NCBI GenBank assembly: GCA_026692965.1
Contig: JAPLNF010000330.1
Location: forward strand, 800 to 46,730
Reading direction: 5' to 3'
Length of the DNA stretch: 45,931 nucleotides
DNA from: Planctomycetota bacterium
GTDB lineage: Bacteria; Planctomycetota; Planctomycetia; Gemmatales; Gemmataceae
Below, in pieces: positions 29,252 to 32,774 of the stretch; the stretch's first letter is position 1, and every line of letters begins with the position of its first letter. Both the position numbers and the translations under genes were made by a program. The notes under the pieces were generated by a model that searched no databases, was not told where the DNA came from, and saw nothing but the letters and a program-made list of their open reading frames with translations.

Positions 29252-29722
29252 TTAAAATTTGGGATTCAACCCCAACTGCTCCAAAGAGGAATCAGAGGGG
29301 TTCTGGGCATCAAGGCCCAACAAGGAAAATATTTCAGAAGGCTTCACTGTTCCTTTGTCAGTAAACTGAAGCCCCACAGATGATTGGTCAAGAAAAACCA
29401 TGGTCGAATGAAGACCCTGGATAATGCTGCAACTATGTTTCCAAGCGCTCTGGATAAAGCAAAGGGAAGGTTTTGCAAACACAAGCGTTTTAACAAGGGC
29501 GTTTTTTTTAATGTAGCTATCACTAATATTTAAATTCTTATCTACAAAATTAGATTGCAAAGAGAGAGGCTTAACAACCTTGGATTGAAGAACAAAGTGC
29601 TTTAAAATACCTTGACAACGTAAAGGATTAAAATCATTTTTATTTAGCGAACGAGTAGGAACTTTTAAAAAGTTTTTCTGCTGGCTCGCTAGGGGTAAAG
29701 AAATCCCCAGTAATAAGTTCAT
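29252..29722 (-). CDS. hypothetical protein between PTS enzyme I and RNase E/G
   Basis: I do not recognise this 156-residue protein. Its ATG at 29722 has GGAAA about nine bases upstream, and its stop is 26 bases before the RNase E/G start on the same strand, so it may be translated from the same message. The N-terminus (MNLLLGISLPLASQQ) is mildly hydrophobic and could be a short signal sequence without a clear positive region. The middle is basic and mixed. The C-terminus (IFSLLGLDAQNP...LEQLGLNPKF) looks like real protein sequence. No motif, repeat or membrane segment stands out. Because it borders a damaged gene (EI), it could itself be partial. The 195 bases between it and the end of the EI remnant show no other gene. 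Confidence 0.5.
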   Translation of the reverse strand: MNLLLGISLPLASQQKNFLKVPTRSLNKNDFNPLRCQGILKHFVLQSKVVKPLSLQSNFVDKNLNISDSYIKKNALVKTLVFAKPSLCFIQSAWKHSCSIIQGLHSTMVFLDQSSVGLQFTDKGTVKPSEIFSLLGLDAQNPSDSSLEQLGLNPKF

Positions 29723-29917: not shown

Positions 29918-31491
29918 TTAATACATCAATGAGTCAGGCAAAAGCTTCCGGGTCTGTTCCCGCAAATAATTGTTTACATCACGCGCAGTCTGTTGGCGCA
30001 TAGCTTCTTTGGCAACATTTTCGGCATCTTTAAGGTTCACCATCCGGATAAATTGCTTTATCTCCGGAATACTATGCGGCGAAACACTTAACTGCCTAAT
30101 TCCTAAGCCAAGAAACCATTTGTGCCAATGGAAAAGAAACTCACTTCTTTTGCCATTAATTCTGAAAGAATGGCAGCAGATGGAACTTCGATCATAGTTC
30201 CTATGGGAATATCCTTATTAAATGGTACTTTTTCCTCAAAAAGGTCTTCTTTGACTTCCGAAACGATCATTTTAGCCTGCCGCAGTTCTAAAACCGTTGA
30301 AATCATAGGGAAAAGCAACTGAATATTTCCATAAACACTAGCGCGCAAAATCGCCCGAAGTTGGGTTTTAAATAAGCCAATATTTCTAAGGCAAAGCCTG
30401 ATACTTCGAAGGCCAAGGAACGGATTCTTTTCGGGGATGTGCAAATTAGAAAAAGCAGCCAATTTGTCGCCACCTAAATCCAAAGTCCGGATCACCACCG
30501 GCCTATCCTTCCCCATGGCTTGAACCACTTCCTTGTAAGCCTCAAATTGCTCATCTTCGGTAGGAACAGCATCTTTTCCCATGAAAAGAAATTCCGTTCG
30601 ATAAAGCCCTATTCCCTGCGCCCCTTTATCAAGACAATGCTTAGTTTCATGTGGAAACTCGATATTTCCAAGCAGCTTAATCTCAACACCATCCTGAGTA
30701 ATTGCAGGAAGATCGCGAAGACTTTCAAGGGAAGCATCTAGCGAAACTATATCTGTCTGAGTTTTTTGGTACCTTCGCAAGGTTTCAGCATCGGGGTCGA
30801 TGATGAGTAGGCCGGCATTACCATCCACAATCACAATATCCCCGCCTGTCACCTCGGAAATAAATTTTCCCAAGCCAACAACAGCTGGTATTTCTAGGGC
30901 ACCAGCCAAAATAGAGGTGTGACTTGTCCTACCACCCGCCTCCGTCGCAAAGGCATGCACCAGTTTGGTGTTTAACTTTGCAGTCTCGCTGGGGGAAAGG
31001 TCATGCGCAAGAATAACGACAGGCTCATTCAAGGAATTAAGCCCTTCCTTGCGTTGCCCAATCAACTTTCCAAGAATTTGTTTTTCGATGTCAAATAGGT
31101 CTGTGGCGCGAGACGCCATTCTTGCATCAGGAAGACTTTGTATTTCTTTAATATGCTTACGCATTACCAAACTAAGCGCATATTCTGCGGTAAAGAATTT
31201 TTTCGAAATCAGTGATTCAATTTCGCCAAGAAGAAATGGATCTTCAATCATCTGGGCATGAGCGCCCAATATAGCACCATACTGCGTACCAACTTTAGCA
31301 GCAATTATAGCTTGATTTGAGCGTACCTCGATTGCTGCGTCTCGGATCCCAATCTTAAGTCGTTCAAATTCTTCTACCACTTCAGAAGCCGTAATAGACC
31401 TTTGGGGAATCAAATACCCTTCGGTGTCAAGCAACAAAGCAGGGCCTATAACAACCCCTGGATAAACTGGTATTCCTCGATAAACTTCCAT
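29918..31491 (-). pseudogene. ptsI: PTS enzyme I (phosphoenolpyruvate-protein phosphotransferase), broken by internal out-of-frame deletion
   Basis: Enzyme I takes phosphate from PEP and passes it to HPr. From ATG at 31491 (AAGG upstream), 462 residues read in frame: the phosphohistidine site GGRTSHTSI (His191) and the start of the PEP-binding barrel (GIGLYRTEFLF, VVIRTLDLGGDK, NPFLGLRSIR, GTMIEVPSA) up to FFSIGTN. The frame then hits a stop at 30103. Another frame (30115 to 29918) resumes with FLGLGIRQLSVSPHSIPEIK and runs 65 residues to a normal C-terminus. Against E. coli EI about 60 residues are missing between SIGTN and LLGMG. The lost part holds the Asp of NDL and the proton-donating Cys of GMCGE. 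As written, the protein cannot be active. Pseudogene or assembly loss are both possible. Confidence 0.92.
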
Positions 31492-31521
31492 CAGCACCTT
31501 GTTCCAAACAAATAAACAACA

Positions 31522-31815
31522 TCAATCCAAAACAGAAACATCTTCCTCCGCGAGAACTTTTTCAAGTTCTTGCAAAGCCAAATGAGAGTCAGATCCAAAA
31601 ACCTCGAGAGTCACTTCGCTATCTTCACCTGCAGCAACAAGCATAAGTTCGAACATGCTTTTGCCATTAAAAACCTGGCCTTCCCAAATCAATTTAACTT
31701 CAGAAACGAAACGTGATGCAGCCTCAACAAATGCAGCTTTAGGCCGCATATGAAACCCATTTGGGTTTTTAATTTTAACAACGCTCTTCAGAAGTTCCTG
31801 GCTCGCATCTTCCAC
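31522..31815 (-). CDS. HPr-type phosphocarrier protein
   Basis: This protein receives phosphate from enzyme I on a histidine and passes it to EIIA. The phosphorylation motif is NGFHMRPKAAF (His22 with the chosen start) in place of the commoner GLHARPA; the key His and Arg-Pro are kept. The second site region, NGKSMFELMLVAAGEDSEV, keeps the Ser that HPr kinase modifies in other bacteria (Ser53). The GTG at 31815 is preferred because GGAG lies eight bases upstream and the length (97 residues) then fits HPr. A TTG at 31854 would add 13 residues and begin two bases from the EIIA stop. The gene lies between EIIA and the damaged EI, consistent with one phosphorelay operon. Confidence 0.9.
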   Translation of the reverse strand: MEDASQELLKSVVKIKNPNGFHMRPKAAFVEAASRFVSEVKLIWEGQVFNGKSMFELMLVAAGEDSEVTLEVFGSDSHLALQELEKVLAEEDVSVLD

Positions 31816-31855
31816 CAAAAGATCTCCAATAATTTCCCCGACCAAAACTGGCAAA

Positions 31856-32314
31856 CTACATTTTCGAGTACTGATTCATCTGCTCAAACAATTGATCAGC
31901 AGTGGTACAGGCCCTTAAAGCCTTAACCAATGGATCATCGCGAAGTACTCTCGAAACAGTTTCGAGAGCTCGCAAATGGACTACAGGTTGGTCAACAGGT
32001 GAAATGATCAGCACAAACACGAAGACTGGTTCTCCATCTCTGCTGCCAAAACTAACCCCTGAAGGAGAAATACCCAAAACCCCAACTAATTTGTCTACGC
32101 CACTGTATTTCGTATGAGGAATAGCAATTCCATCACCAATACCAGTTGAGCCTAGCAATTCTCGTTTTAGCACGGCTTTGATTATGTCTTCAACATCCAC
32201 ATCCTTAAAGCAACCATTGCGACAGAGGCTTTCTAAAAGCTCTCGAATTACGCCTTCTTTATCAGTGGCATTAAGTTCTGGAACTATGGCAGAACGCACT
32301 ATGAAGTCCGACAT
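31856..32314 (-). CDS. PTS EIIA domain protein, PtsN/fructose-mannitol type
   Basis: The 152-residue product is a single EIIA domain of the fructose/mannitol/nitrogen family. The active site is GIAIPHTK (His67 from the ATG at 32314; an ATG two codons upstream at 32320 is equally possible). The usual flanks are present: LLESLCRNGCFKD..I..AVLKRELLGSTGIGDG before it, and VFVFVLIISPVDQPVVHLRALETVSRVL after it, the segment that contacts HPr. No EIIB or EIIC is fused or nearby, so it more likely acts as a regulator (as PtsN does in PTS-Ntr) than in sugar uptake. hpf lies 42 bases upstream and HPr directly downstream. The hpf-ptsN-HPr order is also seen in proteobacteria. Confidence 0.92.
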   Translation of the reverse strand: MSDFIVRSAIVPELNATDKEGVIRELLESLCRNGCFKDVDVEDIIKAVLKRELLGSTGIGDGIAIPHTKYSGVDKLVGVLGISPSGVSFGSRDGEPVFVFVLIISPVDQPVVHLRALETVSRVLRDDPLVKALRACTTADQLFEQMNQYSKM

Positions 32315-32356
32315 TCGCATTTTGATTCACCATCCCTCTCATCTAAAATGCAATAG

Positions 32357-32686
32357 TTAAAGCGATTTAGGAAGTTCACCCATTGGCGGTGTTTTACGAT
32401 GGTCTTGTATCTTTTCCTTATACTTCCGAATCTGATGCTCCACCTTATCGATCACTAAATCAACAGCCGTGTACAGGTCTGGGTTTTCTTCCTTCGCAAA
32501 AAAATCATGCTTATGTTCGGCGTTAACAGCAAGTTCAACCACTTTCATATCTTTTTGATGATCTAATGTTACTTCAATCATGGATATACGAGCAAAAAAA
32601 TGGAGAAGTTTCCCTGCTTTTTCTTGAATATGTTTTTGAACTTCCTCACTAACATGGCCATGTCGAGTCGAAATTTTAATTTGCAC
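32357..32686 (-). CDS. hpf: ribosome hibernation promoting factor (HPF/YfiA family)
   Basis: HPF binds the ribosomal small subunit at the tRNA and mRNA sites and silences or dimerises ribosomes in slow growth. The GTG at 32686 is chosen: AGGAG (32694-32698) lies seven bases upstream, and the protein then begins MQIKISTRHGHVSEEVQKHI, the normal family opening. It has 109 residues, the short form. An open frame upstream to 32749 lacks such a site. The beta-alpha-beta-beta-beta-alpha pattern is visible, with VELAVNAEHKHDFFAKEENPD and DLYTAVDLVIDKVEHQIRKYKEK as the last helix; the tail is basic and Pro-rich. It heads the gene run leading into EIIA, HPr and EI, a neighbourhood known from many bacteria near rpoN, which is not in this window. 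Confidence 0.93.
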   Translation of the reverse strand: MQIKISTRHGHVSEEVQKHIQEKAGKLLHFFARISMIEVTLDHQKDMKVVELAVNAEHKHDFFAKEENPDLYTAVDLVIDKVEHQIRKYKEKIQDHRKTPPMGELPKSL

Positions 32687-32774
32687 AATGATTCTCCTAA
32701 GTTCAGAGTTGCCCAATTCTCTAATATGAGGGCTTACATAAAAGCTCAATCCTATTCAACTTACATTCTATGTC

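Follow-up and report, generated by a model that had tools for sequence, protein, structure and literature searches.

Gene content of the locus and the interrupted enzyme I frame

The window, by which we mean the whole stretch of 45,931 nucleotides analyzed here, contains a minus-strand gene run in which an enzyme I (EI) frame resembling ptsI is accompanied by genes for an HPr phosphocarrier, an EIIA of the fructose/PtsN class and a protein resembling ribosome hibernation factors (Table 1). The HPr is the only one found in the genome, as is the EIIA for its class; the latter matches the TIGR00848 and PtsN models, both below their cut-offs.

Table 1. Features of the EI gene run in the window
Feature	Coordinates	Strand	Remarks
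Interrupted enzyme I (ptsI-like) frame, 464 aa from GTG	31497..30103	minus	read and translated
Detached C-terminal 65 EI codons and stop	30115..29921 (entry 29918..30115)	minus	out of frame with upstream part
Junction, 178 bp of congeners missing	30117/30116	minus	AATG/GTTTC on coding strand
HPr phosphocarrier	31522..31854	minus	NPNGFHMRPKA histidine motif intact
EIIA, fructose/PtsN class	31856..32320	minus	GIAIPHTKY histidine motif intact
Ribosome hibernation factor-like protein (S30AE)	32357..32749	minus	same gene run

Translation bore out the initial annotation, according to which EI reads to FFSIGTN, stops four residues later and leaves a 65-residue tail in another frame: the stump terminates as FFSIGTNGFLA followed by its stop codon, and the tail (LGLGIRQLSVSPHSIPEIK...LPDSLMY, then a stop) is open in a different frame directly at the junction. 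The stump retains the N domain, including its histidine motif GGRTSHTS, together with the PEP-binding domain up to GTN, and is matched by PF05524, PF00391 and PF02896 (positions 3-205 of 293 in the last). Thus, the N-terminal and phosphohistidine domains expected of PtsI (PF05524, PF00391, with GGRTSHTS) are present in the window, whereas the complete PEP-binding barrel, with the Asp of GTNDL and the Cys of CGE, is absent from it and present in all five congeners in which the gene is whole. That automatic annotation would miss such a break had been predicted, and TIGR01417 indeed accepts the stump as a good EI match (453 bits against a cut-off of 341.7, covering model positions 3-454 of 565).

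Comparison with six genomes of the same genus

To define what is missing, the genome containing the window (G000) was compared with six further genomes of its genus, one genome per species. In five of these congeners EI forms an uninterrupted frame on a single contig (96-99% identity), with stop-to-stop lengths of 593, 593, 593 and 620 residues and a fifth of 554 residues that is cut by a contig end; the extreme N-terminal end of the G001 gene runs off its contig. The congener gene carries the active site GTNDL...VCGE, and in it the 65 residues that are detached in the window (FLGLGIRQLSVSPHSIPEIK...LPDSLMY) lie in frame. Aligned against these five, the window lacks exactly 178 bp at 30117/30116, which gives a precise size to the out-of-frame deletion of about 60 residues proposed from the sequence. 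In the sixth congener (G004) EI is split over two contigs elsewhere, and the piece that spans the junction is offset by the same 178 bp. The breakpoint is unique, its exact microhomology in the alignment to the congeners is zero, and it carries no Ns; a search for the 178-bp segment across the rest of the window's own assembly did not find it.

Because 178 is 3 x 59 + 1, the loss removes 59 whole codons and one further nucleotide, or about 60 residues (query D461-L520), which correspond to D455-L514 of E. coli EI (2hwg) and include R465 and C502. The initial annotation had listed the NDL Asp and the GMCGE Cys as lost; both are, the Asp being the first residue to go, but the Asn of NDL is kept. 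D455, R465 and C502 have catalytic roles in EI, and a stump devoid of the D455-L514 equivalents is not expected to autophosphorylate from PEP.

The genes of the window show no further frameshift that is private and uncompensated, so this is not a decaying region. A further difference of a single nucleotide, at about 29853, comes after the EI stop codon and has no bearing on EI. At 29501-29510 of the window, G003 has about 141 extra bp within a small ORF downstream of EI that are absent from G001 and G006; being private to G003, this difference was rejected as a lesion of the window. When the DNA of the region was searched against a plasmid collection, only short matches of 74-78% were returned. 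The closest named relative in a contig scan was a Gemmataceae MAG from Lake Baikal (68%), which places the organism among the planctomycetes of this family, and no second copy of the species was found in that scan.

Selection on the remaining EI codons

Private changes, defined as codons at which the window departs from a state shared by three congeners, were counted over the 457 codons upstream of the break, where 32 were silent and 1 was a replacement. Mutation has 2.83 times as many opportunities to cause a replacement as to cause a silent change, so that many replacements would be expected in a stretch evolving neutrally. These counts require that a real loss fall in approximately the last 5% of the branch, about 5% being the upper bound for the share of the branch that follows the loss. 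The gene was under full selection until very recently, or is so still; the relaxed selection after the lesion that would mark a genuine pseudogene is not seen, and the counts are compatible only with a very recent lesion.

A second EI and the phosphotransfer chain

The initial annotation held that the HPr and EIIA could not be phosphorylated from PEP unless another EI exists, and that a second complete EI would tell against its reading. The genome does encode one, a PtsP-type fusion of GAF and EI that is 772 residues long (G000:C291), with GAF, histidine and PEP-binding domains, in which the H, GTNDL and VCGE motifs are intact. The gene is whole except for a scaffold gap of 5 Ns with 7 duplicated bp at its flanks, and its product scores 368.9 against the E. 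coli PtsP equivalog model, below the cut-off of 583. Since a PtsP with intact motifs exists, HPr and EIIA need not be without a phosphoryl donor, and PtsP may phosphorylate the single HPr.

Neither of the two PTS permease families searched for, EIIC (PF02378) and PTS_IIB (PF02302), has a match in the seven genomes of the genus; therefore, the EI-HPr-EIIA chain is probably regulatory. This agrees with published work that assigns planctomycete EI to EI-R, a regulatory group found in organisms that have no PTS transporters (PMC2405797); PTS crosstalk is documented (PMC13104625). A search of the genus for HPr kinase gave no match, but no weight is placed on this negative, as the control search also missed the B. 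subtilis enzyme. Five congeners encode a second, longer protein with an EIIA_2 domain in frames of 241-318 aa (G001:C276, G003:C56, G004:C99, G005:C209, G006:C360), which was found in neither G000 nor G002.

Other breaks and gaps in the same assembly

The G000 draft comprises 3.31 Mb in 360 contigs and is 73.9% complete. Breaks were tallied over approximately 168 kb of it, the window included, aligned to relatives, and comparable private breaks and mis-sized gaps were found elsewhere, including in an essential gene. A private, clean, out-of-frame loss of 91 bp without Ns interrupts miaA (G000:C294 4014/4015; L243 4014/4015), which is whole in G001, G002, G003, G005 and G006, and a histidine kinase gene that is whole in five congeners has a private out-of-frame loss of 40 bp with AATC homology at its ends (G000:C249; L239 about 866). 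In the essential alaS, 30 Ns stand for about 214 bp of the relatives (G000:C331; L244 13461-13490), so that coding losses of such size do arise from assembly here. Other N-runs deviate in the opposite direction (68 N for 30 bp, 59 for 26, 56 for 39); scaffold gaps are thus mis-sized both ways. Three N-runs have duplicated flanks, of 17 bp (L136 8763, C8), 24 bp (L141 2081, C13) and, in ptsP, 7 bp (L033 6123, C291), and these are overlapping contig ends left unmerged.

Blunt N-free breaks of at least 30 bp all fall on the G000 side (178, 91, 72 and 63 bp), with none on the side of the relatives. The EI junction differs from the ten other gaps in the sample, all of which have Ns. The EI and miaA losses both begin right after ACAAATG on the coding strand, a heptamer with a frequency of 0.15 per kb in the sample; chance is an unlikely source of this match, which was noticed after the fact. 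Two candidates were rejected: a hydrolase difference (L148) as an out-of-frame loss, as its 72 bp preserve the frame and there is no third genome to polarize it, and a 40-bp difference at L243 7466 as a G000 loss, as the reference G002 has these 40 bp tandemly duplicated. This duplication, in G002:C127 (L227), breaks a frame that is whole in G000, which means that draft relatives carry lesions too.

Interpretation of the break

The 178-bp loss is most likely not present in the chromosome of the organism, and an unmarked assembly gap is its probable cause. Two assembled pieces would have been joined by scaffolding or gap closing without Ns, and this N-free join would drop 178 bp and shift the EI frame; we infer that the join is artificial. 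We favor this explanation because EI is whole in five congeners, with the same offset in G004, and the missing segment is absent from the assembly; because the remaining EI shows no decay; because the same draft has private breaks in miaA and the histidine kinase gene as well as mis-sized gaps, alaS included; and because the MAG is incomplete (73.9%, 360 contigs) and has blunt breaks on its own side only. The organism would then most likely possess a normal EI-HPr-EIIA chain, as its congeners do, in addition to PtsP. Several observations count against an assembly gap. The EI junction has no Ns, and the breakpoints share no long repeat that might explain a collapse of the assembly graph. Simple chance joining does not predict a common ACAAATG start, and the AATC homology at the histidine kinase loss is of a kind frequent in real deletions. 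Comparable breaks in the sample are few, and natural deletions of this size do occur, one of which a second EI could make tolerable.

A real deletion of 178 bp, very recent and at the level of the strain, is possible but in our view doubtful. Here ptsI would have become a pseudogene whose stump keeps the phospho-accepting histidine domain without autophosphorylation from PEP, while HPr would be served by PtsP, or an unphosphorylated chain would be tolerated as regulatory. A clean junction and an intact second EI agree with this, and neither EIIC (PF02378) nor IIB (PF02302) was found in the genus, so that sugar uptake through those families would not be blocked; the EI-R placement of planctomycete EI (PMC2405797) and the documented crosstalk (PMC13104625) point the same way. 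Selection, however, is not relaxed in the remaining gene, every sampled congener is whole, and several similar breaks in one draft, with an essential gene among them, are better explained jointly as assembly gaps. An extended form of the same idea, in which the ptsI, miaA and histidine kinase deletions are all real and recent, the lineage is passing through a burst of deletions that favor certain sequences to some degree (two follow ACAAATG immediately) and PtsP is now the sole donor for HPr and EIIA, strikes us as improbable. We consider it very improbable that the 464-residue protein functions as a repurposed EI variant, such as a phosphatase or acceptor domain, kept by selection: its histidine domain and most of its PEP domain are open and conserved, but the break lies inside the catalytic barrel, removes the D455, R465 and C502 equivalents, is out of frame and is private to one MAG, and the detached tail is still conserved in sequence, as expected of a gene that was whole until very recently. 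Programmed frameshifting or another form of recoding that restores the tail deserves almost no credence. In its favor, the frame of the tail, which is not that of the stump, is open right at the junction. The alignment nevertheless refutes recoding, as the DNA lacks the codons for approximately 60 residues and the active site could not be restored.

Read literally, the break would point to a planctomycete without the entry enzyme of its phosphotransfer chain, lost by deletion. That the organism lost EI, as first claimed, is not established, given the second EI, the lack of decay and the other breaks in the assembly. The break most likely does not exist in the organism; were it real, it would amount to an ordinary and recent loss of a gene, with the second EI as a buffer. 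A draft genome can yield a convincing pseudogene: the stump still passes the cut-off of the family models, and the likely cause was revealed only by alignment to congeners and inspection of other breaks in the assembly.

Comparison with known systems

The window EI is like PTS enzyme I (PtsI, TIGR01417; E. coli EI, 2HWG) in domain order and in sequence up to GTN, but differs from it in the 178 bp that are missing (the D455-L514 equivalents) and in its out-of-frame tail. EI-Ntr (PtsP), the GAF-fused EI, has its counterpart in the protein of G000:C291, which shares the GAF, histidine and PEP-binding domains and the motifs; this is a gene separate from the window EI, with a score below the cut-off of the E. 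coli PtsP equivalog. With the EI-R group of planctomycetes, Chlamydiales, Chlorobia and Proteobacteria (PMC2405797) the locus shares a planctomycete EI beside HPr and EIIA and the lack of matches to the two PTS permease families searched for, a likeness by gene context that makes it a candidate member. Apart from having no Ns to mark its junction, the EI break resembles the mis-sized or unmarked scaffold gaps of draft MAGs, in that coding sequence is missing, the frame is broken, the neighboring genes are intact and other gaps are mis-sized.
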